A DNA stretch of 64,000 bases from Bryum argenteum (taxonomy: Eukaryota; Streptophyta; Bryopsida; Bryales; Bryaceae), in the NCBI GenBank assembly GCA_037043015.1, contig CM073329.1, positions 9,750,648 to 9,814,647 of the forward strand. The letters run 5' to 3'. The notes under the pieces were generated by a model. It saw only the letters and a program-made list of their open reading frames with translations, made no database searches and was not told the origin of the DNA. Within the stretch, counting starts at the first letter, position 1. Every line of letters begins with the position of its first letter. Below, in pieces: positions 18,293-60,807 of the stretch. A program made the position numbers and the translations under genes.

Positions 18293-18662
18293 TTAACCCT
18301 TAAACGTCTAGCTACACGGATTTGGGCAGCCCAGTATTGGATCACAGCATCTTTTGGACTTGGGCATCATGAATAGTGCACTTTTTGAACTTGGGCATCA
18401 TGAATGATCCAATCAATGATGAGCTTGCAACCTCCTACAAGTATTGTACAACCCCCAACCTACCTACCACAATCCTTTCAAAGCACAAAATCACTCATAC
18501 AAATTGTGATTTGAATTGTGAAATTTCACTTTTTGAATGCATCAGGAGAAGGTGACCAGTGTGACATCAAAATATAAGTGAAAAGTTGAGCACATTGAGA
18601 GCTACAGAGAAGATTCTGTTGGAAAAGGACCCCTCGGGTCACCTTAGACGTTTAAGGGTTAA
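18293..18662. mobile_element. TTAA-bounded MITE, 370 bp
   Basis: The termini are perfect 18-bp inverted repeats TTAACCCTTAAACGTCTA. The flanks (aca / aat) show no duplication beyond TTAA. There is no coding capacity. An internal short direct repeat (ACTTGGGCATCATGAAT) lies near 18360-18415. It belongs to the family described in the findings. Confidence 0.8.
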
Positions 18663-19059
18663 AATGGCCCACTATGGTTCACCATTACACCATCTTAGAC
18701 ACACCTTCAACTCCAACTTCAAAAATCCATAACAGTTAGGACAGTCCAAAATTTATGATCCTAGCATGTCCAAGATCTCCATTGTTCTTGTGTACAACCA
18801 GTAGTATGAGAACCAAACAAGATTCTATTCAATCGATGGAGTACAAGGAAATACGCAATAGACTTCAAATATCGAGTGAGTACAAGGAAATACGCAACAG
18901 AGTTGTTGGTATTATGTATTGTACTCACGATTCATTATTTATTGCAAGACTGTTTACACAGGTACAAAGTTGCCTCATCTCATTGCAACATGCTGAAACT
19001 GACTCGGTGACCAATATAATGAAAGAGAGGTACACTAATTTGTCGGTTAAATAGTAGAT

Positions 19060-19784
19060 AAGTCTGGTACGGATGTGATATTAAGCAGTTCGTAAGTACG
19101 AATGCGACATCCCTGATTCAGAAGAATCCAAAGTCCTGCTCTGATGTCAACACTATTATCACAGAAAAACAGAACTCCGTATTATCACATACGTACAATG
19201 ATACAAATGTCCTCTCAAGCAATCCATTAAAAAGGATTGACTGACCTCCTCAAATGTTACACTATCTACAGTCTCAAGTGTTATCCATACTGAATAATAA
19301 GCTCAGAGGTACCTCTGAAGAAGCATTCATTAGTTGGATCGATTAGTGTAAGGAACGACGTACTATAGCAATGAGAACTGACTGGTTGAAGACTCTAAAA
19401 CCCAGAAGAGTTCACATGCATCATTAGAGAAGGAGAAAAGCAGTAGAGAAATGCAAGCACAGACACAGTTCCTGAAGAAAGGATCGGTCCGTTGATTGGA
19501 TTATTGTAATCACTTGTTACATAATCACCTATTCATACCCGAATAACCTCGAAGTTCCGGAATATACAAATGTGGAGGAAAAAGCCATAATAGAGTTGGA
19601 ACGCTCACGTAGAGAATCAATCCATCTCCAGCTCAAGGTTCCTTCAGGCACTAGTATTCCTTCAGGCACTCTCACTCTCAATAAAATAAACGATAAATAA
19701 CAATATAACTCACTCCAATTATGGGTTCCTCAGCACACTGTACACACCTCGTAGTTGTAAAAAGAATCATAATCAAGCTCACCT
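19060..19784 (-). other. 3' flank of the DUF868 gene
   Basis: No other gene was seen. Just past the stop codon on the minus strand lies AGAG/GTGAGCTTG, a donor-like site, so a 3' UTR intron is possible. Confidence 0.35.
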
Positions 19785-20681
19785 CTATTCGTTCTTCCAC
19801 GCATAGAGCACCAAAGAGAATCCACTAGGACCCGAAGTCTCCTTATCCTTGAAGCTGTAAGTACCAGGCCATTGAAGCACCGAGCTGCAAGCTGCAACTT
19901 CTTTAAGCCACGGCTTATCTGAAGACAAACAAGTCTGGAACATGAAGACAGCATGCCCTACTCGCGGATTGAACAACCAGTTGTGGACGTCCCAGAAAAC
20001 CTCAACAGGGTTGCCATCCACGACAATCGTTTGATTGCCTCGGAACTTCCACATGAGCCGCTTCACTTGCACGACGACCTCTCGATCCACTCTCACGTAC
20101 ATCCGAGGCTCGTTAGTGGGGCCAATCTGACATTCTATCACAATATCATGTGCTTTTCCTCCTTCCTCAAACTGTGCTTTCGTCGAATGATACTTTTTGC
20201 CGAACACATGCTCGGATCTTGAGACCAAAATAGCTTCTATCGATGCTGGTCTTGCTTTCGTCTTCTTGTAAGCTTCACTGTACATGTCACCGAGGAGGAG
20301 GACGACCTCCCCATCGGAGACGACGGCTACGTAGAAGCTGTCGCTCGGTACTGGACCGCAGATGTACTTCGCGGAAGAAAGATCCCAGTAGACTTCTACT
20401 TTGAAGTCGTCTACTTCGAAGCTCTTTAGCCCCTGCTTTTTCCAGAACATCCATGGCTTCATGTCTACCTTGCACATGTGTTGGTCTACGTCTACGTTCA
20501 CACTTAACCCTTGCCCTATGAGATTCTTGCACCATGTGATTGAAAGGGGACGGCATTTGCCTGCTAACTTCGTTTGGTATAAACATGTGACAAGGTTTTG
20601 CGTCACTTTGTTGCTACCTGCTGAAGTGTCAACCACCTGTACTCCATACTCGCCGAAGCACGATGGCAATGATTCGTGCAT
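19785..20681 (-). CDS. DUF868 family protein, 298 residues
   Basis: This is an intact single-exon reading frame with ATG at 20681 and TAG at 19785. The protein follows the plant DUF868 pattern. An N-terminal SLPSCFGEYGVQV motif is at about 4-16. LVTCLYQTKLAGKCRPLSIT is at about 31-50, followed by WCKNLIGQGLSVNV at about 51-64. CKVDMKPW...KGL-type segments, VYWDLSSAKY..GP.P, FYVAVVSDGEVVLLLGDM, RMYVRVD and VVDGNPVEVFWDVHNWLF follow. The length matches the family's usual 280-320 residues. There is no signal peptide or membrane segment. DUF868 proteins have no established biochemical role that I can state. The start agrees with family N-termini. On the minus strand an acceptor (TTTTCTTGCAG, exon from 20916) and a donor (AAAG/GTATGTG, exon ending 21375) suggest a 5' UTR intron. 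Confidence 0.9.
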   Translation of the reverse strand: MHESLPSCFGEYGVQVVDTSAGSNKVTQNLVTCLYQTKLAGKCRPLSITWCKNLIGQGLSVNVDVDQHMCKVDMKPWMFWKKQGLKSFEVDDFKVEVYWDLSSAKYICGPVPSDSFYVAVVSDGEVVLLLGDMYSEAYKKTKARPASIEAILVSRSEHVFGKKYHSTKAQFEEGGKAHDIVIECQIGPTNEPRMYVRVDREVVVQVKRLMWKFRGNQTIVVDGNPVEVFWDVHNWLFNPRVGHAVFMFQTCLSSDKPWLKEVAACSSVLQWPGTYSFKDKETSGPSGFSLVLYAWKNE

Positions 20682-21960: not shown

Positions 21961-22412
21961 AGCGGTTAGTGCAATATTTTATTCTTGAGGAGGGAGCGCG
22001 CGTGCCCGCGGGCAGGACCCTATCTCCGCGTGGGTTATTGTTGTCGTGGCCACGTTGACCCGCTTATTTAACGCCACTGGCTTGCACAATCTTCGGTAAG
22101 TTGGATCTCATTCCTTTTAATTGGTCTCATTCAATTCCCAATGGATGGAGGCGTTTCATACTCAATTTAATTCTTGGGTTGTACTATGATACATTCTTTT
22201 GGAGTACATTATATCATTGTATGGACTTGGACTAGATGTGAGTAAAATTTAGCATGAGTGAAAAATTGTTCATGAGTTTTTCGAAGGAGGGAAAAGAAAA
22301 AATACATCCCATGAGCTTGGTTTTAAGCATTTTAATGTTTTAGATTCATTTTCTATATTTTTCTTAACCAAAGAATGTATTATCATTTGAAAAAAATAAA
22401 ATAGCTATGTAG

Positions 22413-22752
22413 CTAGAAGCTCCGGTCCTTTTCTAAGGGGCCAACGTAAATGAAGTGTCCATTCGTAGTGTTAATAACCCGATGCCTACTGGACAAGGAA
22501 AAATTGGGACAATACTACTTCCCCGTTTCGAAGGTGGACACCATAAATGCGCTAGTTTCTAGCTATTTCCTAGTGCCTTGACATAGTATCCCCCCAAAGA
22601 GCTTTGAGGTACCCATACACCTAGACCCCTCTCCATAGTTAGGTGGACAGTGGTGGTGGGCACCACGCCAACATGTAGAATAGAAACTACAACCTTCTTG
22701 TGGGGGGGGGGGGTATGAGCTCCAACCACCAAGCCAAGGCATGTGGTGCCTC
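22413..22752 (-). repeat. SINE copy, near full length
   Basis: The tRNA-like 5' end is at the high coordinate (GCACCACATGCCTTGGCTTGG on the minus strand) and the CCGGAGCTTCTAG 3' end at the low coordinate. Poly-G/C expansion (12 G at 22700-22711) interrupts the region between the two promoter boxes. It is the same family as 26476-26837 but more diverged, and target duplications are not clear. Confidence 0.75.
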
Positions 22753-22831: not shown

Positions 22832-23040
22832 GTATAGGTACTATGAAGCCCTTTGGGGGATACCATGTTGGGTATCTCTAATGCACTAGTGGCTAGGTAG
22901 GAACTACCATAGTGTTCACCCCGAGAGGCGTTAGTAGTCTTGCCATTGGTGTGATGACCTCCGGGGATACATCCAAGGATTGGTCGAACTAACACTCTAG
23001 TCACGCCAACCTCTAAATAGGTTGGAGTTCCTCTTATCTT
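22832..23040 (+). repeat. SINE copy, 5'-truncated
   Basis: Starts within the GAAGCCCTTTGGGGGATACC segment and runs to CACGCCAACC..GGTTGGAGTTCC. The tRNA-like head is missing. It lies head-on to the fragment at 23046-23190. Confidence 0.65.
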
Positions 23041-23045
23041 AAAGA

Positions 23046-23190
23046 TACCCCACATGGTATCCCCCATAAAGCACTTGAGGTACTCATACAACAAGGATTC
23101 AAGGATCTTGCACCATAGTCAGGTGGTGAACACCTAGGAAATAAAACCCACAACCTCCTTATTGGGAGACATTAGCCCTAACCATGGAGC
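23046..23190 (-). repeat. SINE copy, 5' part only
   Basis: The minus strand carries the head region (CTCCATGGTTAGGGCTAATG..., GTGGGTTTTATTTCC) to GATACCATGTGGGG. Its 3' half is absent. Together with the preceding copy it makes a back-to-back pair. Confidence 0.6.
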
Positions 23191-24577
23191 GAAGTCTTCA
23201 CAATACATACAACTTTCCTAAAGGACTTTGAGAGTACCTTAGAACAAGGTCCATATCGCCATAATCCATCCCGAAATTTCTCAAATGATGATAATAAGTA
23301 GTCCTGCTTCACAATCGATTATATAAGTAAGGCCGCAAGTACATCCAATAACCATACCACAAATGAACTCCATGTATCTCCCTTTCTACCTCAAACACAA
23401 GAAGATGTATAAACTATAATATAGAACAAAATTCGGACCTCACTTCTATTTGAACCCCATGTTATGAAATGACTTTAATCATAGATATAAGAAATCGATG
23501 CTCTTACTTTGTGACTAAAATAACGAGGGGATATAGCTCAAGTCTAGCTAAGCTATGTGTAGATCCCATGATATTGATATGCTTGAATTCTTACAATATG
23601 GTCGGAACCACTTCCGCGACTAGTCTCGTGAAATTATGGTTGCCGTTGTACGGTGGGCTATTTCCTTGCTCACATAGTTTCCACGTCTCTCGATTGCATA
23701 TTTTAAGCGAGCAAGGCCATAGTTGTTGGCGAGCATCTACCATGAAGTAAGCACGCGAGCAACCCCTTCAAGTGGCCATGAATGTAACAGGTACCTTAAC
23801 GCACTCAATCCACCGGTTACGGCCAGGGCTCGCTGGAAGATGGTGACATGCCGCTTATTTATTTTTCTGATGCGCGAAGATTATGACACACCATGCAATT
23901 TGGCTCTCTCAGTACCTTTATGATGGAGGCTCCATGGAAATTTTTACCTAAAAAATGGATGTCTTGACCGGAGGTGTTTTTCATGGGTACAAAATAGGTG
24001 AAAGAGTTTCATCCATAGGGTTTTACCGCTTTTTACATTGCCTCAAGTTTGTTTAGATGCTTAAGTGGGAAATATACATGTGAGAAGCATTGGCGCAAAG
24101 TCATGCGATGGGCCAAATGTTGAAAAACAACATTGTGGATGACAAGTTGAAACTTTGAAGAGTTGCTCATCTAGAGTCTGTTTGTTTTTGACAAAATCAC
24201 TTGGATTGGGTCATGGATCAAGTTTAGTTTGTGAGTAAGAATTCACAGACCTATTTAAGAAAATACAAGTTTATGGCATGCATTTTAGTGAAGGCAACTC
24301 TTGTTTTTGGGTTTTCAAATAGGGAGCAGGTTTTATCACTGAAAACCACTCATGAGAAATGAAATTTTCTTTGTTTATGGAATCTTCTTACACAAGGATG
24401 ATCTTGAGATGAATTACAACAACTCTGCAATTGGAAGACTTTTGATTTGAATTATTTTGGTATTGGATTTCTAGAGTTGTTTACTGTGAAAGTGGTATTC
24501 TTCATACCCCTCCAAATACCTTACCTATGATGTTGTAACTCTCTGAAACCCTAAAAATTCTATATACTGTCACCCTA
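23191..24577. other. Spacer, no gene supported
   Basis: Frames at 23469-23923 have no recognisable domain. No terminal repeats were found. Confidence 0.35.
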
Positions 24578-24578
24578 T

Positions 24579-24710
24579 ACTGCTCCCAATACTGCTCCCA
24601 ATACTGCTCTCAATACTGCTCCCAATACTGCTCTCAATACTGCTCCCAATACTGCTCCCAATACTGCTCCCAATACTGCTCACAATACTGCTCTCAATAC
24701 TGCTCTCAAC
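24579..24710. repeat. 12-bp minisatellite, 11 copies
   Basis: The unit is TGCTCCCAATAC with TGCTCTCAATAC and TGCTCACAATAC variants, contiguous over 132 bp. Confidence 0.92.
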
Positions 24711-24884
24711 ACCAACAGGAAAATCTCAACACTCAAGTTTAACACCTTTAAATACAAATCCTTTCATAATGTCATTGAAAAAAATGGTAGTGGTACAAGC
24801 ATTTCATGCCCTGGCAGTGCTACCTGGTCCTTCCAGGTACCATGAACTGACCTAAGCCGTAGTTCCTGTCACTATCCCACACTC

Positions 24885-24933
24885 CACACACACACACACG
24901 CTCCTAGCTCCAGCACGAGAGAGAGAGAGAGAG
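24885..24933. repeat. (CA)n and (GA)n microsatellites
   Basis: A CA run lies at 24885-24899 and a GA run at 24917-24933. They are followed by CCCTAATCTCCAACCCTAGC, a composition often seen in plant 5' leaders. Confidence 0.85.
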
Positions 24934-25004
24934 CTCCAAAACTCTCCCAAACCCTGGCCGCCAAACCCTAATCTCCAACCCTAGCCGCCTTCATCCATCC
25001 ACAT

Positions 25005-25094
25005 GATTTCATTCCAGAACAAGATTTCATCCCAGCACAAGATTTCATCCCAGGACAGGATTTCATCCCAGAACAGGATTTCATCCCAGGACTT
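25005..25094 (+). repeat. 18-bp tandem repeat, 5 copies
   Basis: The unit is GATTTCATCCCAGNACAG. The period is a multiple of three, and one frame reads as repeated DFIP(E/A/G)Q. No upstream ATG was seen in that frame, so it is recorded as a repeat. Confidence 0.85.
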
Positions 25095-25578
25095 AATAGA
25101 CTACTAGGAGATTTACTCTTTTACTGGCTAGGTAAATCCCCGGTTAACATTTACATAATGCAAAAAAAATAATAAATACAAAGTTATATCTCCTTCATCA
25201 CCATTGGATTTCAACTTTGTTTGTTGGCTTGGATTCCAATTTTGAATCTAGTTTTTGCGGTAGAGACCTCAATTCCATCGAAGATGTAAAGAAGGACTTG
25301 GCATGTATTTGAGTGTTGAGCATCTTGTTTGGCTTTACGTCCTTTATAATTAGATTTCACCATTGTTAGGTCATCATTGAACCAAGAATTTATTTCGGTG
25401 AATTTTTTTAGTAAAAGGGTTTTATTGAGAGTAGGTTTATAGCACACCTTATAGTATAGGAAGCACATAGTAAAAATTTTAAGAAGAAAATACTAATTTA
25501 AACCTCTTCACATCGAACAAACCATTTTTGACATCCTTGGTCCTCTACGAGTTAAACAAGTGTAGTATACGAGTTGCC

Positions 25579-26877
25579 TTAACCCCTTAATGTCCTTGGG
25601 GTATTTTTAGCCAAAAACTCATCTTCAAAAAATTAAAGACAAATATGAAGATAAGGTATTAGATCTCGACCGTACAGACTTGTTGTAGAACATGTGGAGC
25701 AAAAGTTGACTCATGACGCCTCAAAAATTGCAAGATTGTAATGTACTAGTGTGCAAATTTAACTACAAAATATCATCATTTTCTCTTTGAAGTGAAAATA
25801 CTACCATCAAGAGATTTGCAATTAAAAAATCACCAACTAGAAACTTATCATTTTCATCTCACATACTCTTTTGAATCACAAATATCTATCAAATAAATAT
25901 CTTGGCTCAACTAATAGCCTTGAAGTGGTGAAAATTGCCAAAAAATCTACAAAGGAAAAGCAGTCCAAGAATTAGACCCCTCGCACTAAAATCCATGCCT
26001 TATCTTCAATGTTTCTTTGATTGGGTCAATGTTTCCATCACTAAAACTATATTAGGATTAGAATCTATTCCAAAAAATAAAGTCAAAAATAATCAAACGG
26101 TGGATGGAGAAGATGGAGAAGATATGGCTCCTTAGAAACCATTCAATTTTTCACTTTCTTCATCAAAGAAACATCATAGAAAATCCAATACCAAAGTTAT
26201 CTAGATCAAAGAAATTCCTACTAGAAAGTTTTTGGGATGTTAAAAAAGCCATGATTATTTTTTTGATCTCACATAAGTGGCTTGAAGTGGTAGAACATGC
26301 CAAATGTTTGAAAACCCAACTAATGAAATTGCCTTCACTAAAATGCATGTGTAGGTGTGCAATTTTTACTACCCAAACAAGACTTGATTTATGACCCAAC
26401 CCAAGTGATTTTGTCAAAAACAAAGCTTGTATGAAGAAGTTTTGGCTCTTCAAAGTCTATGCTCTTCATCCAAAAGGCACCACAAGCCTTGGCTTGGTGG
26501 TTGGGGCTCATGGCCCCCATTGAGGAGGTTGTGGGTTCCATTCCCCATGCCGGCGTGGTGCTCACCACTATAGTCCACCCAACTATTGTGGGGGGTCCTT
26601 GGACCTTGTTGTATGGGTACCTCAAAGTCCTTTGGGGGGATACTATGTCAAGTATCCTCAAGGCACTAGTAACTAGGCTAGAAACTAGCGTAGTTATAGT
26701 GTCCACCCTCTAGAGGGGGAAGTAGTATTGTTCCAATTTCCCCTTGTCCGGTGGCCATCGGGATATTAGCATTACGAACGGACACTTCATTCACGCCGGC
26801 CCCTTAGAAAGGGACCGGAGTTTCTATCTATCTATCTCTCTTCATCCAAAATGTTGTTTTTGACATTCAGGAGTTAA
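25579..26877. mobile_element. TTAA-bounded element (about 0.92 kb) interrupted by a SINE
   Basis: The left end TTAACCCCTTAATGTCC is at 25579. The right end, GACATTCAGGAGTTAA, at 26877 is a degenerate inverse. Its interior parallels the element at 59846-60807 along the whole length (for example TTGTAGAACATGTGGA near 25683, ACATCATAG.AAATCCAATACCAAA near 26170, CCAAGTGATTTTGTCAAAAACA near 26401). A SINE with its target duplication accounts for 376 bp. Without it the element is 923 bp, close to the 962 bp of its relative. No transposase frame is present. Confidence 0.75.
26476..26837 (+). mobile_element. tRNA-derived SINE, full length, 14-bp target duplication
   Basis: The 362-bp body is flanked by perfect CTCTTCATCCAAAA at 26462-26475 and 26838-26851. 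Near the 5' end lie an A-box-like TGGCTTGGTGG (from 26495) and, about 33 bp further, a B-box-like GGTTCCATTCC (about 26533), the arrangement of a Pol III promoter. The 3' part carries TAGTAACTAGGCTAGAAACT, GAACGGACACTTCATTCACG and GGGACCGGAGTTTC and ends in a TCTA repeat. It is the best reference copy in the window and sits inside the TTAA element. Confidence 0.9.
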
Positions 26878-27122
26878 CCCCTAATGGTCCAGGAAAGCGA
26901 AAACTGCTTTTTGGAGTCCAAAATTCAGTCAACTTTGACCATTATAATCTCACAAATGAAGAAGAATCAACGGTTCAATTTTGGCAAAAATGTGAAAGGT
27001 TAAGTTAAATTCAAGATCCTACGGTTGGATCTTCCAAATAATTCTTAGATTGAGAGTTTTTAGACCTGAAGTAAGGTAATGTCCATTTTTGCAATTTTGC
27101 ATCAATAACCTTTAGGGGTTAA
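26874..27122. mobile_element. TTAA-bounded MITE, 249 bp, sharing TTAA with its neighbour
   Basis: The left end TTAACCCCTAATGGTCCAGG and the right end ...ACCTTTAGGGGTTAA are inverse over about 15 bp with one mismatch. The interior (TTGACCATTATAATCTCACA) is the reverse of the motif in the 29868-30135 element, so the two are the same subfamily in opposite orientation. Its left TTAA is also the right TTAA of the element at 25579-26877. Confidence 0.8.
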
Positions 27123-29262: not shown

Positions 29263-32014
29263 TCATCGCTTTGAATGTGTAGGAAGCTCGGACGCAGGAG
29301 GGAAGTCGTCTAACGAGCGAGCCAGTGATTGTGAGACATCGCCAGTCCATGCTCTCGGATGCTTATCTATAGTAGACACAGTTGTCATGGGTTCAGATAA
29401 ATGATGCTCTGAAGCTACACGCTCGGCTGCTTCCTTGAGCTCTAACTCTCTTAAAGCTCTTCTCCCGTATATAGCTGCCGTAATTGCTGTTGTTGCCGCT
29501 ACGCATGCTCCTACTACGTTGTATACGATCTCTATTGGTGTTATGTGCCTCTTCCTGTGTTTGATGTCCGCCAGCGTGCTCAGTAATCTCCCACTGCACC
29601 AATGGCAACTCGTAAGCACATGGATGGCAGCAGATAACACTCACTGAAGTGTGAAGTGTTAAGCTTACCATGTTTTTTAATGCTAGAACTTTGTACACAA
29701 GTTTATTATTATTTTTTAATTGAACAGAAAGAAGGCAAGTTCCTCAATAAACATACGGTAGTCGGTAGACATTGATGAAGAAGTAAAAACTTCTGAATCA
29801 ATTAGTGTAGATAATACTAATTATCATGATTAGTACTCGGAGCTATTGCACAGAAGCGGAAAAATAATTAACCCCTAACTCTCCTTGTTGCAAAACGGTC
29901 TAAGTCACAAAATTTGACCTTCCCTTAGATTAAGCTCAAAAAATCTCAATCCAAGCATTATTTAAAAGATTCAACCGTAAGATCTCAAATTTCACTTGAC
30001 ATTACTCTCACATACCAAATTTGAACCGTTCATTCTTCCTCATTTGTGAGATTATAATGGTCAAAGTTGGCTGAGTTTTTCTCCTACGGGAACCTCCAAA
30101 ACCCATTTCGGGTTTTAAGGAGAGTTAGGGGTTAAGAGGCCATTCTAAATATAAGCACAAATCGGAGACGGACTGATTGGAAAGGACAGCCTGGTTCGTG
30201 TCTACAAATAAAATGAGAACCTTTTTGGTGAGAGCAACAAACATCTCCTTGACAACAAGTAGACGAGTTCCTCAGTAAACATACGACAGTCGGTAAACAT
30301 TGATGTAAAAATAAGAATTTCTGAATCAATCGATGCAATACCATGACTAATGTAATACTTAATAGCATGATTAGTGTAAGGTGAAAAATTCAACGTTATG
30401 GCACTGAAGGACATTGTAGTGGTATCTCTCAGCATAAGCACATGTCAGAAACGGACTGATTGTAAAGCACAGCCTGCGAATAATTGGAAGCCTTTTTGGT
30501 GGAAGCAAAAAAGCGTTGACATAATTGTCACTGAGTATGCTAAGGAGGCAGTTAACTTATATGGAAAGATCAGATACCTGTAAATTGTGATGAAAGCTTC
30601 GGGGACCATACCAAGTATGGAACCAACGATGTAGGGCCCGTATTTGATGTTCGTAGCAGTGATCACATAATTGAACAACGGGTATGGAAATGGGGAGACT
30701 CGCAACAGCATGATCGTTCGTACTTGTTGGACCCACCCCCCTTGCTCGGCAACTCTCAACACTGCCGCCTTCTTTGGATACTTCGTTAGCCACATCTACA
30801 ATACAAAATGCATGAGACATCAGAATACCGTCCATATAACTAACCATTGACCCTTTCGTAATGAGATTGCCATTGTATGAGAAGGAGAACCTCGAGGCTA
30901 AATGCAATAAAGAGGATGAGTATCGAGAAACTGATATATGCAAAGAATGTGTTGACAAGCTTTTGAATGCGGCTAGTATTGTACAGGAAATGTAGCTGAG
31001 ACTGTGATGGCGAAATGGAACGGACCTGTATTCGGTCATGTAAGAGCCAGTGTCCGATGAAGTAAGGCAATGACTGACCAATTGTGGTACCTCCCATGAT
31101 AATGAGAAATCCATAACCGTAACCAAACATCATCCCAGATAACCACATGGAGGGCCCTGATGGAAAGATAAACATCGGGAAGAACGCCAGGGAGCATACA
31201 ATGACCACCGCCAGAACAGGTCTCGAGAATTCGGTCGACTCCCACACCATCAACGGTATAATAATCTGCAAAAAAGTGCGTTCCAACAATTCAGTCAACA
31301 GCGAAAATGACCTCACTTCAAGTAGCGCCATCACTCCTGAATAACTGAGACTTGACGTGTGTATGTGGCACACGTAGATGACTTAGTTGCCACAATATAG
31401 ACTACATTCTTATCTTCCGAATAGTCCGAGTAGAAATTCTTGTTTAAAATGTGGCATAGCTTTAGTCTCAAACTTATGTTGATATGGATGAGGATGGCAA
31501 TAAAGACTACTACACAATACACTTCGATAACCATTATATTATCACAGTTCTACGTCCATTTTCCTTCTCATTTTCAGTGCCTTGATCCGAAAGAATAGTT
31601 CGTATTAACAATTTCGTATGCCTTTTAGTTCAAAATCAAGTCAGGTCACTCAATGGACCTATACTAGGTCAATTTCGATGAAGATAGGGGCATTTCAATA
31701 AGGAAAAGGGAGTAGAGCTTACGGATCCTTACCTTGTCTAAGAAAATGGGACCTACCCAGTGAAGAAACACAGCGGCAATACCAAGGCACACAATGGCAA
31801 GAATCAGCCATTTCGTCCACCACAACCACTGACTGGTCCGCGATTTGGGGCGAGGAATTTCCGGAATGTTGAACTCCTCTAAGTCATCGGCATGATCATC
31901 ATCTTCGGCGTGTCCTAGAGGACGGTAATCTGCATCCTCTGTACCATTTTGCAGTAGCTCCATATTTTCAAATAAGTCTCCACTGGCTCGTGGAGAGCCT
32001 CTTGGATTGTTCAT
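29263..32014 (-). CDS. TVP38/TMEM64 family (VTT-domain) membrane protein, 4 coding exons, 356 residues
   Basis: The exons, in transcript order, are 31733-32014, 31026-31265, 30578-30795 and 29263-29593. All junctions are GT-AG (donors GACAAG/GTAAGG, ATACAG/GTCCG, TTACAG/GTATCT) and the phases fit to give 1071 nt. The acidic N-terminal tail (to about residue 60) precedes a membrane helix at about 67-88. The VTT (SNARE-associated Golgi protein) domain spans about 110-255. It includes FPSGPSMWLSGMMFGYGYG, TTIGQSLPYFIG, RVSPFP at 206-211, FNY at 215-217 and GSILGMVPEAF. A final helix lies at about 267-290. The family comprises multi-pass membrane proteins, and TMEM41B/VMP1 relatives have scramblase activity. 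The function of this one is inferred only as endomembrane. The ATG at 32014 lies 9 nt after an acceptor (GATGCAG, exon from 32023), so a 5' UTR intron precedes it. Intron 3 contains a TTAA MITE. Confidence 0.9.
29735..30500. repeat. Duplicated segments within VTT intron 3
   Basis: Segment A (AGTTCCTCA.TAAACATACG, about 29735-29835) recurs at about 30267-30375. Segment B (GGACTGATTG.AAAG.ACAGCC) lies at about 30169 and about 30455. A tandem duplication of roughly 280-530 bp, with the MITE between copies, explains the pattern. Confidence 0.65.
29868..30135. mobile_element. TTAA-bounded MITE, 268 bp, in VTT intron 3
   Basis: Perfect 19-bp inverted termini TTAACCCCTAACTCTCCTT. The flanks (aaataa / gaggcc) share nothing beyond TTAA. 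The interior carries CATTTGTGAGATTATAATGG near 30040, shared with the 26874-27122 and 41657-41756 copies. It lies between the last donor (30578) and acceptor (29593) and does not touch coding sequence. Confidence 0.85.
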
Positions 32015-33719: not shown

Positions 33720-33868
33720 ATAGATAGAAGATAGATAGAAACTCCGGTCCCTTTCTAAGGGGCCGTCATGAATGAAGTGTTTGTTCGTAATGCTAATATC
33801 CCAATTACCACCGGATAAGGGGAAATTGGAATAATACTTCTTCCCCCCTCGAGGGTGGACAATGGATA
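33720..33868 (-). repeat. SINE copy, 3' half
   Basis: On the minus strand it runs from CCACCCTCGAGG to the CCGGAGTTTCTATCTATCTTCTATC tail. It is closely similar to the 47023-47379 copy. The tRNA-like head is lacking. Confidence 0.7.
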
Positions 33869-34292: not shown

Positions 34293-34441
34293 CAATGGAC
34301 ACTATAACTACACTTCCCCCTCCCCCCTCGAGGGTGGACAATGGACACTATAACTACACTTCTCCCTCTTGAGGGTGGACACTATAACTACGCTAGTTTC
34401 TAGCCTAGTTACTAGTGCCTTGAAGATACTTTGACATAGTA
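34293..34441 (-). repeat. SINE copy, part left of the Copia insertion
   Basis: Contains three copies of TGGACACTATAACTAC and the CTAGTTACTAGTGCCTTGAA block, ending at TTGACATAGTA. The sequence resumes at 40113 after the retrotransposon. Its own 3' tail is missing or rearranged. Confidence 0.75.
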
Positions 34442-34723
34442 TGTTGGAAATATGGCGCTCTTGACTTCTTCGCCTAGTACTTTCATCAGATTAGTTTATC
34501 ATCCTAGTACTTTCATCAGATTGGCTTATCATCCTAGTACTTTCATCAAATTGGTTCATCATCCTAGTACTTTCATGAGATTAGTTTATCATCCTAGTAC
34601 TTTCATCAGATTAGTTTATCATTTGTATATTCATCCACTTGGATGTTATCCACTCTTCATATATATAAACTTGATGCCTCCTTCTATAAACGCAGAGCGT
34701 TCGAGACTGTTGAATCTTCAACA
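34442..34723 (+). repeat. Copia 5' LTR (282 bp) with five 30-bp repeats
   Basis: Starts TGTTGGAAAT and ends TCTTCAACA, directly followed by the primer-binding site. Five 30-bp units (CCTAGTACTTTCATCAGATT...) fill 34473-34622, where the 3' LTR has only a partial unit. A TATATATAAA box lies near 34660. Relative to the 3' LTR it lacks about 50 bp after GCAGAGC. Confidence 0.9.
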
Positions 34724-39901: not shown

Positions 39902-40107
39902 TGTCGGAAATATGGCACTCTTGACTTCTTTCATGAGATTAGTTTATCATTTGTATATTCATCCACTTGGATGTTGTCCACTCTTCCCGTATATAAACTT
40001 CATGCCTGCTTCAATAAACGCAGAGCACACTTGCGCTACTTTTTGTTTACCCATTGCACCTACCGAGACTATGCTACCCACATTTTGAGATTGTTGAATC
40101 TTCAATA
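39902..40107 (+). repeat. Copia 3' LTR (206 bp)
   Basis: Starts TGTCGGAAATATGGC and ends TCTTCAATA, a change from the expected ...CA. AATAAA at 40012-40017 may be the polyadenylation signal. Its differences from the 5' LTR are mainly indels. Confidence 0.88.
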
Positions 40108-40112
40108 TAGTA

Positions 40113-40279
40113 TCCCCCAAAGGGCTTTGAGGTACCCATACAACAAGGTCCAAGGACCCCCACAACAGTTGGGTGGACTATAGTGGTGAGCACCACGCCG
40201 GCATGGGGAATAGGACCCACGACCTCCCCGTTGGGAGCCATGAGCCCCAACCACCAAGCCAAGGCTTGTGGTGCCTCCA
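40113..40279 (-). repeat. SINE copy, part right of the Copia insertion
   Basis: Continues the interrupted copy from TCCCCCAAAGGGC to the tRNA-like head (B-box-like GGGTCCTATTCC, A-box-like TGGCTTGGTGG on the minus strand). It ends GGAGGCACCAC. It joins logically to 34441. Confidence 0.85.
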
Positions 40280-41013
40280 CCCTATATACATGTTAACCCC
40301 CAAGAGCCGTAAGCATTTCTTAACATTTACAAAGTCATTAACAGCTAACATTTACACATTTTTTTGAATGAAATCAGATTTCAACATTTATAGAATATGA
40401 ACAATTTTTAAAGGACAAAGTCAAGAAATATTATGTTCATAACATGTATAGATTTAATGTGTTCAAATTCATGGAGTGGGATACAAAGTCATAGAGTAGA
40501 ATTTTAACATAGTAAAAATTTGTAGCTTTTATTCATTCATATTGTGGATGTTTGGAGTTGTAAATCATCCGTTAAACATTTATAAAATCAACATTACAAA
40601 AAGGGGAGTAACAATTTGTTAACCATGAACACGTTTAACATCTTTTAATGTACAATATGTGGGGTGTAGAAGAAAGTTAACATTTAGAAAGAGCTAACAT
40701 GTATCAGTGTAATATATATAGAGGGTGTACTCTAATGGCGGGACAAGTTATAACACAGCCCGCGCTCCAAAAGTTGGGATATACAAGAATGGAAGGCCAA
40801 TTCATGGCATAGAGGCCGTTGCTTGATTTCAATACAAAATCATTACTGCACTGAAATATTTCTATGTGAACCAATTAAAAGCATGGAATGTAGCTAATAA
40901 TACAAATTGGCTCCATGGCCTTGTTTTTCTTTTACAAATTGGCTCTATGTCCTTTAATGAATAGGCATTAAGGGCTCTACACATGGCGGAATTGCCCCCA
41001 CTTTATCAATTGT
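40280..41013. other. AT-rich spacer, no gene seen
   Basis: No coding frame of note. 'TAACATTTA' motifs are frequent between 40310 and 40690. Confidence 0.4.
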
Positions 41014-41256
41014 TTAACCCTTAAACGTCATATGCTTTCCTGATACCACACCCAAAATCTCTTTTAAACTCCAATTTTAGCATTATTCTATTTTTAATTT
41101 GCTTGAGCTCTATTCTAAGAAGGTATAGATCTCTTTAAGGTGCTCAGTTTGGAATTCTAAAAATTCCATTTGGTATAATGGAGTGTAAGTTATGAGCAAG
41201 ATTCTCTCAAAAAAAAAACCCAACCCCTCGGGCTGGGTATGACGTTTAAGGGTTAA
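41014..41256. mobile_element. TTAA-bounded MITE, 243 bp
   Basis: Perfect 19-bp inverted termini TTAACCCTTAAACGTCATA. The flanks (tgt / tgc) show no extended duplication. No coding capacity. The termini match those at 18293-18662 for the first 16 bases. Confidence 0.85.
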
Positions 41257-41414
41257 TGCGTTCTTCAAGTGGCCCATAGAGCCAATTGAGCCAAAATGTG
41301 GGTAAACTGGCTTGGAGATTTGTTGGCCTTGACTCCCATGTAAATCGTTCTTGAGAAATTGGAAACATTGATGTTGAATAATTCGTAAATCCATGGGTGA
41401 AGCAAATGTAGAGG

Positions 41415-41500: not shown

Positions 41501-41656
41501 CGGTCATTGATATCAACTCTTAAACATCGCCAATGTCATCTTTCCATAGTACAGGGGTCTAAATATGAAGCAAGTCTCATAACAGAGCTATAGTCATAGG
41601 AAATTGGGAACCGGAAACAAGAGAACCGGTAACACAAAACTGTAAAAAGTTAATTC

Positions 41657-41756
41657 TTCTTCATTTGTGAGATTATAATGGTCAAAATTAGCTAAACTTT
41701 TTTCTTGCTATAATGTTGAAAACATGTTTCTGAATCTAAGGTTCTTTAGGGGTTAA
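41657..41756. mobile_element. TTAA-element right end, truncated
   Basis: Carries CATTTGTGAGATTATAATGG followed by ...GGTTCTTTAGGGGTTAA, the right-hand part of the 29868-30135 subfamily. No left inverted end was found. Confidence 0.55.
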
Positions 41757-43126
41757 AAAAGGAAAGAACTAATGGCTTGCTCAAGTGGAATATAGGGTCC
41801 TCCCTTGACCAAGAGATTGGATAGATATAGCCTCTACCAATACCAGATTTGAATATAGAACTGTAGCTAGGGTAAGTATACCTATTTTGGACACTTAAGT
41901 CATTCCCCATACTTGGAGTGATGACACGTGTGATTTATTATTTGCAATGATTAACAAATAGAGAAAACAAGGTTTCCCTATTTTTGTCGTAGTTTTAAGG
42001 ACTTACATATCTAACTACAAATATTAGAAGTGATTAATATACATGTACCTATAGTCATTTACTGTACTTAATGTACAAATGAGAAACATACTATCCAAAG
42101 AAATCTTCACCCCATTCCAAGGAAATCTTCATTTTGGGGTGTCGGATTATGGGAGGTTGTGAGGATTCAGGTTCTCTTACCCTACATGCCAAATTTCGAT
42201 CCCTCCACTTCAAACTTTGCTGTTTATGCCACATATGGATCTCACATCAATCAATCCAACCCAAAATGTGCAATTTTTTGACCACTTCGTGCAAGTTGAG
42301 ATATGATTCAAGTTGAGTTATGTAAATACCCTTTTGGTATTTCCAATTGTAAAATCTTCAAAATAACTACCTATACCAACACCATGTTAAGTTTCAACCG
42401 CCGAATCTTTACCATTTGTGAAATCATAACGTTAAAGTTTAAGCAACATCAACAGTTTATTGAAACATTTTGAAGCTTGCCCTTGTAAATTTTGGAGGTT
42501 GCCCTTGTAAAATTGGTAAACGTTTTGACCTAGGGAACATTGAAACTCAAGTAGTGATCTGGTTATGAACTTATTTTTCAACAAAAATAAAAAAAATCAG
42601 AAAAAGACTAATTCAAACTCACCTGAATTGTTCTTTTTGGTTTTGAAAACTAACATTTGCATTAGAAAATTCTTAGTTTAGAATTTGACATTACATATTC
42701 TCACACACAGCTTGTAGTATAAGAGCACCTAGTAAAAATCTTAGACAAAAAAATTACTTTGAACCCCCTTCATCCAAGCTACCTGAAATTGCAAAAACCA
42801 CTTTTTACATCCTAGGGGACAAGAGAAATTCACAGATACTCGCAAAACCTTAGATATTCACAAGACCTTAGAGCATTTCAGTTGTTGCAACAGAAAAAAC
42901 ATTCCCATACTGCCAATAACAAAAGCCCAGAGCGATGTTCCGAGAACGCCCCAATGTTCTAAAACTAAAATATCAATAAGCCACTAAATACTGATTCAAG
43001 CTTGTAAACACCCACTGTTAAAAAATCACACAATAAGCAAAATGTAGCATTTCTGGATCAAGAGAAATGCCGATGCAAGTCCCTCCTTTACATCTCTCGT
43101 GCTATAGTTACAAGAAGATACTAAAT
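41757..43126. other. Spacer and 3' flank of the CTL gene
   Basis: No gene seen. A relic near 42375-42440 (ACCATTTGTGAAATCATAACG) resembles the interior of the TTAA elements. Confidence 0.35.
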
Positions 43127-47010: not shown

Positions 47011-47022
47011 TATCATATCTCA

Positions 47023-47379
47023 GATAGATAGAAACTCCGGTCCCTTTCTAAGGGGCCGGCGTGAATGAAGTGTCCGTTCGTAATGCTAATATCCCGATGG
47101 CCACCTTACAAGGAGAAATTGGAACAATACTACTTCCCCCTCTCGAGGGTGGACACTATAACTACTCTAGTTTCTAGTCTAGTTACTAGTGCCTTGAAGA
47201 TACTTGACATAGTATCTCCCCAAAGGGCTTTGAGGTACCCATACAACAAGGTCCAAAGACCCCCCACAAAAGTTGGGTGGACTATAGTGGTGAGCACCAC
47301 GCCGGCATGGGGAATAGAACCCACGACCTCCTCATTGGGGGCCTAAGTCCTGAACACCAAGCCAAGGCTTGTGGTGCTT
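47023..47379 (-). mobile_element. tRNA-derived SINE, full length, 12-bp target duplication
   Basis: The 357-bp body is flanked by perfect TATCATATCTCA at 47011-47022 and 47380-47391. Reading the minus strand, it starts AAGCACCACAAGCCTTGGCT, carries A-box-like TGGCTTGGTG and B-box-like GGTTCTATTCC, and ends GGACCGGAGTTTCTATCTAT. It is very similar to 26476-26837 over its whole length, so both define the family ends. Confidence 0.92.
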
Positions 47380-47391
47380 TATCATATCTCA

Positions 47392-51819: not shown

Positions 51820-51829
51820 CTTTGCTTTG

Positions 51830-54068: not shown

Positions 54069-54664
54069 TTAACCCTTAATTGTCACCGGTGGCCAAACTG
54101 GTCACCAAGGTCATTGTTTTTGCTTTTGGGGTCCGACAGAGTGGTAGGGTGCAAATCTCGTCCAAAGGCACCCCTATTCTTTTGTTTTTCCAAATCCAAT
54201 GCTCCTTCTTGATCGCCTTCTTGAGGTTTGTGTGATCCGCGCAAAATTGTAGGGGCTACGTGATCCCATGGTCAATGCTCTTTGACTTGGCCTTTCTTTT
54301 TATTTTTTTGACGATTTTTTCTCAAAATAATAAAAAATCTTCATCTTTATCCCTATACCGTGCTCTATGATGCCAATTTTCAGAAAAAAATGACCCAAGG
54401 GAGGAAAAACCAAAAAAGCAATACAATATTTCTCACTCATGATCAGCAACCAAAACATTTTTTTCTCAACGGTGCCATTTTTTGAGATTTTACCCGATGT
54501 GATCGATCTTTTTTGCATTGGTCACATCACCAAGTTACCTTGATAACCACCGTTTCCGATTCTCAAAATTGTTTTACCTTGAGTGCAGAAATAAGGCCAG
54601 AAGACAATGAGGTTGCATTTCTCTCCAATTTGTGGAAAACAAGGATGTCAATTAAGGGTTAACT
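54069..54664. mobile_element. TTAA-bounded MITE, 596 bp
   Basis: The left end TTAACCCTTAATTGTCA and the right end, inverse TTAACCCTTAATTGACA, match at 16 of 17. No extended flanking duplication (tcc / ctg). No coding capacity. Confidence 0.75.
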
Positions 54665-55183: not shown

Positions 55184-55189
55184 ACATGT

Positions 55190-58140
55190 TACTCCAAGTT
55201 AGTATGAAGAAATGTCAAAGAGGGGTGGGTCATGTTGTTGCAACTATTGTAGATGAAATACTGAGTTTCAAAACAACTGTGAAATTCACACGCAAACTCG
55301 TGATAAGAATGAGGAATTGTCCATGCAGATTTCATGAACGTGAGAAGTGGAGATTCCAAGGTCATTGTGCTATAAAAGAATATGATTGAACAAAAAAATC
55401 CAAGTGAAATAAATAACTCTATGTAGTGCTCAATGTTCAATTGTAGTAGTAAGAGTAAGAATTTGAAACCTTTGTATGATGTGGTTTTATTTGGGAGGGT
55501 AGCAAGACAAAGGCCATGATGATGCCACTGTCAATTACGTAATGCTCAGGTTGGATAATTGGAGGGTAGATCACGTCGGAATATTCGTAGTAGTAGATAG
55601 TGGAAAAATTAAAATATATGAAAGCGAGTGTAGTAGAATGACATCTAGGTTGTTATGACAATCTCAATCTTTAACATTTGTTTGAGCGTGGACATTCCTC
55701 CATAAGGTTGCTAGTAGACAAGATATGCACGCACCCTTTGCTGACAATATGCCTTAGTGTCCAATCATTCAGTGTGTCACATCTGTAGAATCTTCTCACA
55801 AAAATCACTCTCTTATATATGACTTATACTTTGTTTCACTTCTTTACTGATTTACTTTTATTGAATTTAATGAAGGATTTGGTTCAGAAGTTGTCTAACA
55901 ACCCCCATTTTTATTTTGAATCTGGCTCTAATTTCAACTGTCCTCTCTTTAAACGCACAAAAAGAATTCTCAAAACAAAAACTAGCGTAAGTTTTGATCT
56001 CCTTACAAAAACCACAGTAACCCATAAGGTAATAGAAATAGCCCTATATTATACTACACTCAATTTACAAGAACTTCAAAAAATGAACAGATGAATCAAA
56101 CTTCAGATGGGAAAAAGTTGGTCCGCTGAACTTTCTCAAACTCATTCAAAATGTTGTTTTGACTGAATTGAACCCATAACTAAACCGATTATGCCTTTTC
56201 TATTTGACGTCTCTCACGAGTAAACTTACTTTAACCACTCAGTAGATAAAGACTGAGCTGACATTTATTTTCAATTCATTCTCAACACAATGATATGAAC
56301 TAACTAAACTACATGATTGACTCGGAAGACTGGGATTCTATTCTGAACTGATGGGATTCTATTCTGATCTGACTTTTCTCTCTATAACGGATGACTGAAG
56401 CTCTTCTGACTGATTCTGACTCCTCCAACTGAAACTGAATTTGAACCCTTAGACTGAGACTGACAATGACTTCGCTCGATATTTGACTAACTCATTCATA
56501 AAACACTACATTCCCTTACCCACAATAACCCGAAAATAAGTGGTAATAATGAGGTTTTATTAAGCTCAAATTCTACGTTCTACAGGAACCTTGACTTTAT
56601 CGGATGCCTTTGATAATAGGGCATGGATTTGAGTGCAAAGAGTCTAGTTTTGAACCTCAAAGCATATCTCACAAAACACACTATTGACAATCACATAACC
56701 AAGTCGAAAGAGGTGTTGCGTGCATTTCCCATGTATTGATTTGTTCTAAATTCTAGACTTTGTTTGATTTGACGTTCGGTTATATTAGGGTTGTTCCAAA
56801 ATGCTTTTGATAAATTATTTTCTTTATTTTGGTCCCCGGTCCAATTGTGAATGGAGGTAGAATCAATAACCTAGCCCCTGATAGCATTCTTCTTGCATGG
56901 TTACTACCATGTCATTGCATACAATGATAGATTTATAACACCAACTCCAACATTACTACCCCTAACTTAACCTAACCTAGAAGTTCAGTTTATTGAGTTT
57001 ACGTATATGAATGATGGGTTTCTATAAAAGTCATATACAAGAAATTGGAAAATTGTCAACCACTATTTATCCCTAAATTTCCTTGGATTTTTGAGAGCTT
57101 GAAACCTCAAAACTGCGGTTTTCTTCCTCTATGTAATTCCGGGGGATATAGCAAATGTTTTAACTTATTTTGAACTATAAACCTCAGATCTTGTACCAAA
57201 GTGTATTTTTAGTTATTAATTTAAAAATCAACAGTTGGATGCTTAATATTTGCAAGATTATAACATCCAAAGTTTTTTTTATAGTTTTTTAGGCATTGCT
57301 TCAAAGGCATTGTCTTCATGATGCAAAAAGGAAGTTGAAGATTGTAACCTCATAGATTTTGGATGTAGATAATCAAGTTGGGAACACCCATGCACAATTT
57401 TAGAAACCCATTTGGTTGTTTAGACCTTCATGCAATTCATTTTACAAGCAAAGGTATAAAAACAACTAGTTACTAAAACATGCATAGCGTTAACCATATT
57501 TGACTTTTGGAAAGTGTACACGGTGAGTACGTACTCTATTGAAATTTAGATGAAACTAATCACTGAAAAACAGGAAGCTACTCATTCCATCACCCCCAAG
57601 TACAGTGAACTCCTTAAATGCACAAAAATAGGTGTTCGTACCTTATTACATCAACTTCACTACTTTCAAACTCTCGTATGTTCACAAAAAGCATCTATAA
57701 TGAATGAGTTTCATCTACACTTGCCTTTCAAAACTTGAACAAAAAAATAAAAATAAAAATCACCATGAGTCATCAAGAGAACAATAACCTCAATATTGAA
57801 GTGCAACCTCAAAAGAACCAAACTACACTAAAATTTACATTTAGTGTTGTCTGCACTAATTGATATATAATCATTACTTTTATTACTAAAAATTTCATAA
57901 GTTTGCCCTCTTTTGAGTATTACATGTATTTTTTTGCCGAGTTAAAACATATATCAGAAGTAAAAAGTTATAACAAACCCTAATCATATAGCATGGCTAC
58001 ACTAAATATAATTTTTAGTGTAGCTAGTTTTTGGTGATCCCGCATCGCACACCTAGTTTGTGCGTATCCGCAAACCTCATCATTTGCGAAGACGCAAATG
58101 CAAGGTAGACACGTCCTTGCATGCTTCCCATTCAATATGA
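55190..58140. other. AT-rich spacer, no gene supported
   Basis: Frames near 55186-55440, 55819-56094 and 57550-57738 have no recognised domain. A 20-bp duplication (TGGGATTCTATTCTGA) lies near 56331-56366. Confidence 0.35.
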
Positions 58141-58145
58141 TCATA

Positions 58146-58306
58146 CATGGGGTATACGGAACCATAGGTTTGTACCATGGCGGGCTTGGTCCAACATACA
58201 TGGGGTATACGGAACCATAGGTTTGTACCATGGCGGGCTTGGTCCAACATACATGGGGTATACGGAACCATTGGTTTGTACCTTGATGGGCGGGCTTGGT
58301 CCAACA
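58146..58306. repeat. 53-bp tandem repeat, 3 copies
   Basis: The unit CATGGGGTATACGGAACCAT... ends TTGGTCCAACATA. The first two are identical over 53 bp and the third has a 4-bp insertion and a few changes. The overlapping open frames on both strands are by-products. Confidence 0.9.
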
Positions 58307-58509
58307 GACCGAATCCACAAACGAGGACCCCACAACGCGAATGAATGGGTGGGTAGGGGTTGGGTTGACGTATGTTTGTATGCATTTGAAGAAGCTCCTG
58401 TGACCTGGTCATGGTCGGCATTTCCTTTTTGCTAAAGGTTATCCGAAACCGGCCCTATGTAATGTACACTTTGATGCATGCCTACTGTACCATGTTGAAA
58501 GCTGCTTCG

Positions 58510-58510
<1 letters not shown>

Positions 58511-58560
<50 letters not shown>
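58511..58560. repeat. T50 tract
   Basis: Fifty consecutive T. Further runs of T33 at 59620-59652 and T30 at 61661-61690 lie in the next 3.1 kb. Confidence 0.9.
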
Positions 58561-58561
<1 letters not shown>

Positions 58562-58712
58562 TTGTTGGAAAAAGGTACATTCGTATTCGTATTAGTGCGT
58601 GTCACACTATTTGCGGAGACAAAGTATACCTCCCTTTGAGAGTTTGCTTCGTACATGAAATTTCATGTTCATGAATATGAATGTACGTGCATGTGAAAGT
58701 GATATACAAGGT

Positions 58713-58853
58713 TGTCACATTGGACAATTTACTGTTCATCACATTGGACACTTTGGACGACTTTATATCGTGGCCTAATGATCGCGACTTTATATCTTGG
58801 CCTTATGATCGGGTCAATCTAACGGTGGTAAATAGAACTTGTCCAATGTGACA
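58713..58853. mobile_element. Small inverted-repeat element, 141 bp
   Basis: TGTCACATTGGACAA at 58713-58727 is the inverse of 58839-58853. Inside are two near-identical 27-bp units (CGACTTTATATC.TGGCCT...). No clear target duplication, so the class is open. Confidence 0.5.
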
Positions 58854-59618
58854 TTTTATGCAACATAAAACCAAGACCTTCTAGATTTGTAAGATTTTTC
58901 GAGGAATGGTAGTCAACCATTAATTCTCGGTATTTTTATTTTTTTTTCTAATGAAGCATGTTGATTTTGGTGGGAGAATTTTGGGATGTTATCAAACTTA
59001 GTAATCAAGTAGTGATGAAGTCTCTTAAGTTAAATTTCATCTTAGAATTACAACAACTGAAATTTTTTCAAAAACTCTAGTTGAAATTTCTATTTGTTTT
59101 ACAAGTTAGGGTAGCCTCTGAAAATTTTGAAAACAATATGCACAAAAGACGTGGGAGACAAACTGTGGATGTCATGATCTCTCGAATGGTAAACACCTCC
59201 AAGAGTTGTGCACACCTCCAAGAGTACATAGAGGTAGAACATCGCAGTCTTTGAAATTTCAAGCTCCCAAAAACAGTCACACATTGAGTTTTCCGGGTTA
59301 TGAGATTATAATGATATGAGTGAATGTGTTTATTTATACCATGTTCCACAATGCTTAGGAATTTGTGAAAGACTTATATGGTACTACCTTAGCAGGGTTT
59401 GGTCCTCAAGGAACGAATATTTATTATTTTGAAAAGATTATGTTCGTCAGCCAAAAGTAGATTTTATTGAAATTCGTCCTTTTGTTTTTTGGAAAATCCT
59501 ATGCAAAAGAGAGAGATGAACAAGAGGCTCCGACTATTGCTGTAACTCATATTGTTGACTGTTGCAATAACTCATACTTTCCAAAATTTTCGTTTCTATT
59601 GGCTTATAATTTCTATTT

Positions 59619-59656
<38 letters not shown>

Positions 59657-59845
59657 ATATAATTACTTATGAACTAACCTGCTATGGTAGTACGGTATTT
59701 TACTTGTCAATTTTGTGTGCAAAAATGCCTACAATATGCAATATCTTTAGTAGAATTTGTAATTTAAGTGAACGGTTGAGCTAAATATTCCAATTTCAAA
59801 AAATCACATCTAAAGAATCAAGCAAAAATATCAAAGAACCAAGAT

Positions 59846-60807
59846 TTAACCCCTAAACGTCCCTCCCTATTTTAAGCCAAAAAACACATTTTCGAAAAAA
59901 GTGTCATAGATGAAAATGAAGTTAACTTATTCAGATCTCAACTGTACAAACCTATAGTAGACTTATTGTAGAACATGTGGACCAAATTTTGGGTCATGAA
60001 CTCTCATAGATTGGGAGATCATAACGTATTAGTACTAAAAACAATATGTAAAATTTCATCATTTTCACTTTGGAGTGGAAATTATATCAACAAACGAATT
60101 GCAACAAAAAAATCACCAACTAGAAAGTTGTGTGCCTTCATCTAAATAACACACTTGTATCAAAAAAAATCATCAAAAAAATTTATTAACTCCTATAGTA
60201 GCCTCGCAATGGTGAAAACTGCCCAAAAAAAATATAGAGGAAAAGTAGTACAAAACTACACCTCTTGCACTCAAACCTACGCCTGATCTTCAATTCGGTC
60301 AAGATTTCTATCACTAAAACTAGACTCTAATCGGCATCCATCCCAAAAAAAGAAGTTGAAATTCAACGGTGGATGAAGGAGATATAGCTCCTCAAACTTC
60401 ATCCATTTTTTCACTTTTTTCAATGTAGAAACATCATGGCATATCCAATACCAAAATTATTTGGATCAAAAATCTTTCAATTAGGAACTTGTTTGAATCC
60501 ACCTTAAGAATATACTTATGAAAAAAAAAATCATAAAAAACTATTTTTGATTTCTCATGCAATGGTAAAACATACCCAATGTTTGAAATCTCAAAACCAA
60601 AAGCTGCTGTCACTAAAATGCATGCCATTACTTCATACTTCTTTGTATAGGTCTGCAATTTTTACCGCACAAACTAGACTTGATTTGGAACCAAACCCAA
60701 GTGATTTCGTCAAAAACAGACTTTGGATGAAGAAGTTATGGCTCTTCAAAGTTTCGGATGGATGTCAAAATTATATCAAAACGACCACAAGGACGTTTAG
60801 GGGTTAA
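59846..60807. mobile_element. TTAA-bounded element, 962 bp
   Basis: Perfect 17-bp inverted termini TTAACCCCTAAACGTCC. The flanks (gat / tgg) show only TTAA. It matches the 25579-26877 element along its length, which defines a roughly 0.95 kb subfamily. Plus- and minus-strand frames inside (60434-60807) do not resemble a transposase. Confidence 0.85.

Follow-up and report, generated by a model that had tools for sequence, protein, structure and literature searches.

The window analysed here is a stretch of 64,000 nucleotides from the moss Bryum argenteum (contig CM073329.1, positions 9,750,648 to 9,814,647). It contains short elements bounded by TTAA, which the original prediction had likened to piggyBac transposons. 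Seven such elements had been claimed, and all seven are present with TTAA on both sides. We name them by their first positions and give them on the plus strand. CCCYTAA is found in 13 of their 14 termini, the exception being the right end of the 25579 element (CTCCTGA). Perfect TTAACCC(C/T)TAA ends number 14 in the window, compared with a mean of 0.07 and a maximum of 1 in 100 dinucleotide shuffles. The seven elements are miniature inverted-repeat transposable elements (MITEs) by their features: they are short, have inverted-repeat ends and occur in many copies, and no listed open reading frame of at least 150 amino acids overlaps them.

Six of the seven MITEs are complete. The 18293 element (18293-18662, 370 bp) and the 41014 element (41014-41256, 243 bp) have perfect terminal repeats of 18 and 19 bp, respectively, TTAA included here and below. 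Both belong to the lineage-A group described later, and the 41014 element lies within another repeat family. The 29868 element (29868-30135, 268 bp; 19-bp repeat) and the 26874 element (26874-27122, 249 bp) belong to a CCCCTAA group, and the latter is 73-80% identical to the 29868, L038 and L032 copies (L numbers denote loci). The 59846 element (59846-60807, 962 bp) has a 17-bp repeat. The 54069 element has a 14-bp repeat and is 594 bp long (54069-54662): its right end had been placed at 54664 and is corrected here to 54662. A relative of this element was not found among the elements compared. Terminal repeats of 14-19 bp had been claimed for every copy except 25579; this is correct for five elements but not for 26874, where the perfect repeat is 11 bp and 15 of the first 20 bases match.

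The 25579 element (25579-26877) has a perfect terminal repeat of only 5 bp, and 14 of the first 20 bases match. The original prediction described it as a degenerate copy. It is decayed, but alignment shows a member of a 960-980-bp subfamily (68-76% identity to the L030, L033, L034 and 59846 copies) that carries a 362-bp repeat resembling a short interspersed nuclear element (SINE). This insert (26476-26837, no strand assigned) lies between exact 14-bp duplications at 26462-26475 and 26838-26851. The TTAA at 26874-26877 serves two neighbours, as the right end of the 25579 element and the left end of the 26874 element. The count of seven was too low. Two truncated relatives, recognised by end pattern and sequence match, each retain one TTAACCCCTAA end: a relative of the 29868 subfamily at 41649-41756 on the minus strand, with its end at 41756, and a relative of the 930-bp L025/L027 subfamily at 61245-61732 on the plus strand, with its end at 61245. 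Internal element fragments lie at 24117-25430, 42467-42799 and 57071-59275. By a tally of matches, these elements have contributed about 9% of the window.

The genome (258.8 Mb in 25 contigs, of which 11 large contigs make up 258.4 Mb) contains 28,902 matches to TTAACCC(C/T)TAA, compared with 745 for a reversed-pattern control. In a separate search, the inner terminus GACGTTTARGGG was followed by six unconstrained bases, so that TTAA played no part in choosing the ends. This search gave 1492 + 1443 matches (2,935) in the genome and 264 + 255 (519) for the control. The free bases were read from the first 100 matches listed, all on contigs C1 and C2. As predicted for copies across the genome, TTAA flanked 83 of these 100 ends; 16 were one base away from it and 1 was two bases away. 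The four positions were T in 96, T in 97, A in 91 and A in 98 of the ends listed, and the base beyond them showed little preference (A 29, G 28, T 25, C 18). When ends were paired with the four outer bases unconstrained, TTAA stood on both sides in 18 of 18 pairs, 12 of which are in loci chosen for TTAACCC matches. TTAA is the target of these elements and is duplicated at insertion.

These counts bear on two other kinds of MITE. In Tc1/mariner (Stowaway) elements, the duplication is TA and the outer bases are free. If the present elements were Stowaway-like, TTAA would be a mere preference and the terminal repeat would begin with ACCC. TTAA does include TA, a single copy cannot separate a TA duplication from a TTAA duplication within a fixed TTAA target, and the inner TA is kept in 88 of the 100 listed ends. 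However, the outer T and A are no less conserved than the two bases between them, and elements with the same ends encode a piggyBac-type transposase (see below), a genome search for mariner transposases not having been made. We consider a Tc1/mariner origin very unlikely. PIF/Harbinger (Tourist-like) MITEs, with a 3-base duplication of TAA or TTA, are barely conceivable as an explanation. The termini adjoin TAA or TTA, but the left TAA and right TTA are not direct repeats and the duplicated unit is TTAA; here too, no genome search was aimed at Harbinger transposases. Both readings were rejected on the base-by-base conservation of the target, and the empty sites described next also speak against the Harbinger reading.

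The original prediction had proposed a comparison with empty sites, and we made it on paralogous sites. The best case is the 41014 element. Its flanks (about 40914-41013 and 41257-41356) belong to a repeat family with inverted AATTGGCTCTATG/CATAGAGCCAATT stretches, which has 693 candidates in the genome, some of them about 8.5 kb apart on contig C3. The joined flanks (204 bases) were used as the query, and the best 40 of the 693 candidates were scored; counts of scored places, here and below, are lower bounds, only the best candidates having been scored. The 41 matches obtained comprised the 2 own flanks and 39 others, and all 39 others were continuous across the junction, 6 of them lying within 60 kb of one another on C3 and therefore not independent. 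Fifteen of the 39 were aligned. None was gapped at the junction; a single TTAA was present in 14 and TTGA in one. A second case is the 268-bp element of L038 (754-1021). Its paralogue in the window (1858-2388, plus strand, 86% identity over 531 bases) is unoccupied and has one TTAA, although no more than 22 bases match beyond the junction on the right. In the third case, a 586-bp MITE (L041:2017-2602) sits in a TTAA within the terminal repeat of an 18293-type element, and 18293-18452 is the uninterrupted version of this site (94% over 161 bases). A further candidate, in which L036 would show the L032 element's site unoccupied (70%), was flanked by relatives of repeats and was not used.

The original prediction also suggested a search for a transposase between the same termini. 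The piggyBac transposase model PF13843 (DDE_Tnp_1_7) matched above its curated cut-off at no fewer than 116 places among 775 candidates (best expectation value, E, 7e-82), and it had no match in 14 control genomes. Twenty of the 116 loci were examined in detail with 1.5-kb flanks. Six were extended on the missing side, and for five both ends were located. Four of these complete elements (L001, L002, L010 and L016; 4950, 5199, 5412 and 4469 bp) have TTAACCCTTAA ends and form lineage A, and the fifth (L020, 4940 bp) has TTAACCCCTAA ends and represents lineage B. All five have CCCYTAA termini, so that the MITEs and the transposase-bearing elements have common termini. In addition, a TTAACCCCTAA right end was seen in L019, for which only the 3′ side was extended, and the right ends of L008 and L015 read TTAACCCCTCAAGGCCC.

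Uninterrupted frames of 886 and 900 amino acids, both with a full-length DDE_Tnp_1_7 domain, are present in L002 and L016, respectively. The L002 protein is related to piggyBac and piggyBat transposases of known structure (E 2e-29 and 7e-24). The three aspartates that align with the catalytic motifs, at positions 268, 346 and 447 of the insect piggyBac enzyme, are found in 20, 19 and 20 of the 20 copies examined. A cysteine-rich C-terminal domain is a trait of the piggyBac superfamily; the L002 and L016 frames have cysteine- and histidine-rich tails, which zinc-finger models match below cut-off only (best E 0.02). The first 400 or so codons of these lineage-A transposases (L002:1204-3864 and L016:1204-3906, minus strand) have no Pfam match at E 1.

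The ratio of nonsynonymous to synonymous substitution rates (dN/dS) was calculated for 13 pairs within lineages. It was 0.04-0.14 in eight pairs and 0.31-0.40 in three; one near-identical pair gave 1.21, and in the last pair dS was saturated. These values indicate that the transposases have been under purifying selection. Between L002 and L016, dN/dS was 0.06 for the catalytic part, 0.14 for the C-terminal part and 0.18-0.32 for the long N-terminal part. Thus, the N-terminal extension is less constrained.

The MITEs were then compared with the transposase-bearing elements. A 36-bp stretch at the right end of the 18293 element aligns with the 5′ end of the L016 element (89%, E 5e-7). Two motifs were sought within 60 bases of either terminus in 23 small elements and four lineage-A elements. 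CCCGAGGGG begins at base 25 of one end in the 18293, 41014 (right end), L026:807 and L016 elements, and GGGCAGCCC begins at base 32 of the opposite end in the 18293, L026:807, L001, L002 and L010 elements. CCCGAGGGG is invariably on the 5′ side of the transposon and GGGCAGCCC on the 3′ side. Therefore, in the 18293 and L026 elements the two ends of a lineage-A element are kept in their order. L001 and L002 have CCCCAGGGG in place of CCCGAGGGG, and in L036 CCCGAGGGG is at a different position. As for lineage B, the 586-bp L041 MITE resembles the L020 element at its two termini, with 71% identity over 170 bp and 74% over 242 bp, which is what an internally deleted derivative should show. The right end of L019 has a counterpart in L024:613 (72% over 213 bp). 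Judged by these matches, lineage A pairs with the CCCTTAAA group (18293, 41014 and L026) and lineage B with the CCCCTAA group (the L041 and L024 types and probably also the 26874 and 29868 elements). One transposase for all subfamilies had been proposed; this is not supported, different groups of small elements being tied to no fewer than two transposase lineages. A further terminal group is seen in L042:3097-3841, a 745-bp element with TTAACCCT(A/G)GAACGTC ends. Its terminus is nearer to that of insect piggyBac than are those of the other groups.

The TTAA target, the empty sites with a single TTAA and the piggyBac-family transposases with common termini agree with the original assignment to piggyBac. 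We conclude that the small elements are very probably miniature non-autonomous piggyBac transposons, mobilised by the transposases of the 4.5-5.4-kb piggyBac elements in the same nuclear genome. In this mechanism, the transposases would act in trans, excising the MITEs and inserting them at TTAA, which would be duplicated. The ends would consist of an inverted repeat beginning with CCC and of end-specific subterminal motifs, through which they may be recognised, and at least two lineages, A and B, would each act on different MITE groups. By analogy with insect piggyBac, excision may be seamless. Excision of mPing in rice is also often precise.

Several observations weigh against this conclusion. 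The free-flank control reached about 18% of the genome count, and some of the listed ends may be chance matches. L063, another paralogue of the L038 site, reads TTTG instead of TTAA. The 41014 element does not have GGGCAGCCC, and the 54069 element has neither motif. For the 26874 and 29868 elements, the similarity to the L020 element is confined to 58-109 subterminal bp, and no transposase among the elements compared could be tied to the 960-980-bp subfamily. At the transposase loci, the second end of L005 was not found after extension, and no perfect TTAACCC end was found in the 1.5-kb flanks of 11 of the 20 loci, which were unextended. Among the enzymes, L007 has glutamate for the second aspartate, L002 has arginine beside the third aspartate where the other 19 of 20 copies have glycine, and stops interrupt 23 of the 116 regions listed for the transposase model.

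The last of these points raise the question of activity. The L002 frame may be impaired despite its continuity. The substitution in L002 and the loss of the second aspartate in L007 mean that an uninterrupted frame is no proof of activity. A fossil system, in which genuine piggyBac relatives are present but nothing moves today, would be in line with the change at the conserved glycine of L002, with the stops, and with the many truncated or decayed copies (25579, 61245 and 41756). In contrast, the 900-amino-acid frame of L016 is uninterrupted and retains all three aspartates, and there are nearly identical MITE copies. The L034 copy of the large subfamily has 40 full-length scored places (7337 candidates) that are 97-100% identical over 871 bp. 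Nine of these 40, the query's own included, round to 99-100%, and they are distributed over contigs C1, C3, C4, C6 and C10. Such identity indicates that movement has been recent. For the inner 196 bp of the 29868 element, 39 other scored places (1863 candidates) are 95-98% identical, and two more tandem pieces are 89-90% identical. The 59846 element belongs to a smaller branch; genome-wide, three other copies are 93-94% identical and many others 80-82%.

The system may also act on its own termini. The lineage-A terminus TTAACCCTTAA contains a second TTAA. The pattern of insertion into such an end, TTAACCCTTAACCC(C/T)TAA, has 210 + 221 matches (431), some of which may be simple CCCTTAA repeats, compared with 0 + 32 for the control; L041:2010-2602 is an example. 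Back-to-back ends with one common TTAA occur at 407 sites, compared with 0 for the control. A rough estimate took some 14,000 elements, about 1.2 million genomic TTAA (scaled up from the 294 of the window) and a share of 24 in 100 listed ends for the CCCTTAA kind. Random choice would then give about 40 own-end insertions and about 175 back-to-back ends. Because 431 and 407 were observed, insertion into own ends may be favoured.

We weighed two possibilities for the present day. A native, diversified system that still works, with several lineages that have their own MITE swarms, seamless movement at TTAA and a preference for the TTAA within their own CCCTTAA termini, is a reading that we put forward tentatively, without claiming that it is probable. 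That nothing moves today is also a serious possibility, though we lean towards doubting it. The L002 substitution makes the working system slightly less likely and the fossil system more likely. The elements might be active at present.

Other features of the genome concern the host. A genome search with the 22 bases of miR534, allowing up to 2 mismatches, gave one match, at locus L064 (C4:27240350-27240720), which is identical to Physcomitrella miR534-2 as given in the table of PMC1838911. In a 231-base stretch it pairs with a near-complementary arm to give a strong hairpin (-95.7 kcal/mol, z-score -5.14). The first stretch taken, of 180 bases, gave no special hairpin (z-score 0.20), and the second arm is absent from it; the arms are about 155 bases apart. 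Rfam had no match in the window or at this locus. In the available part of PMC3565333, miR534 serves as an example of moss-specific microRNAs, and the hairpin points to a moss as host. The window also contains a DUF868 gene, a family that Pfam names plant protein.

The remaining features of the window are repeats. The SINE-like repeat, about 360 bp long and bearing a (TCTA)n-like tail, is found at 26476-26837, 47022-47380, 40107-40276, 33722-33861, 34358-34442, 22410-22751 and 23038-23198, the further window copies being 78-95% identical; by eye, it resembles tRNA-derived SINEs. Fragments of a Copia-type retrotransposon, with integrase and reverse transcriptase domains in broken frames, lie at 36568-39006. 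On the minus strand at 14166-15678, open frames encode a repetitive stretch of HPSILDFSWVHPSI-like repeats, which is probably a tandem DNA repeat and not a gene.

The piggyBac superfamily is already known, and the label exists for land plants. In the available parts of the papers, it is tabulated in a fern (PMC6890710) and in land plants generally (PMC4438587), and piggyBac is listed among the MITE superfamilies of angiosperms (PMC10004981). These parts give counts or names only, without a transposase, an empty site or a pairing of autonomous and small elements. A 2025 account (PMC12732532), as far as its accessible text goes, describes the superfamily across animals, fungi and protists and as occasional in plant genomes, for example red algae. 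In the literature searched, which excluded most subscription papers and Repbase, no description of a native moss system of piggyBac transposases and MITEs was found. For a land plant, the size, diversity and recent movement of the system, together with its intact frames, are surprising. Thousands of copies, several lineages of transposase evolving under selection and uninterrupted frames would change the picture of a superfamily sparse in plants. The origin of the system, by old inheritance or by horizontal transfer into mosses, becomes testable with a transposase tree. Moreover, piggyBac is widely used in genome engineering because it leaves no scar, and the moss system is a plant-derived candidate for a seamless transposon.

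Among known systems, the Tourist and Stowaway MITEs of plants are likewise small and numerous with inverted-repeat ends. The Stowaway duplication is TA. Tourist elements have a 3-base TAA or TTA duplication according to the available part of PMC10004981, whereas TTAA is duplicated here. The MITEs of corals (PMC2872659) and the Pokey MITEs of Daphnia (PMC4912750) are, in the parts available, short, non-coding and classed as piggyBac, with larger relatives; their hosts are animals, and the likeness is one of description, not of sequence. The closest comparison is with the transposases themselves. Inverted repeats starting with CCC are a trait of the superfamily, and the terminal repeat of insect piggyBac begins with CCC, as do those of the moss elements. 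The piggyBac of Trichoplusia ni (6x67/6x68) and piggyBat of Myotis (9c0f) belong to the same transposase family, with three catalytic aspartates and a TTAA target. In contrast to these, the inverted repeat here differs after CCC, the host is a plant, and the N-terminal part of the moss transposase is much longer, the catalytic domain beginning at about residue 415 of 886 compared with about 121 of 594.

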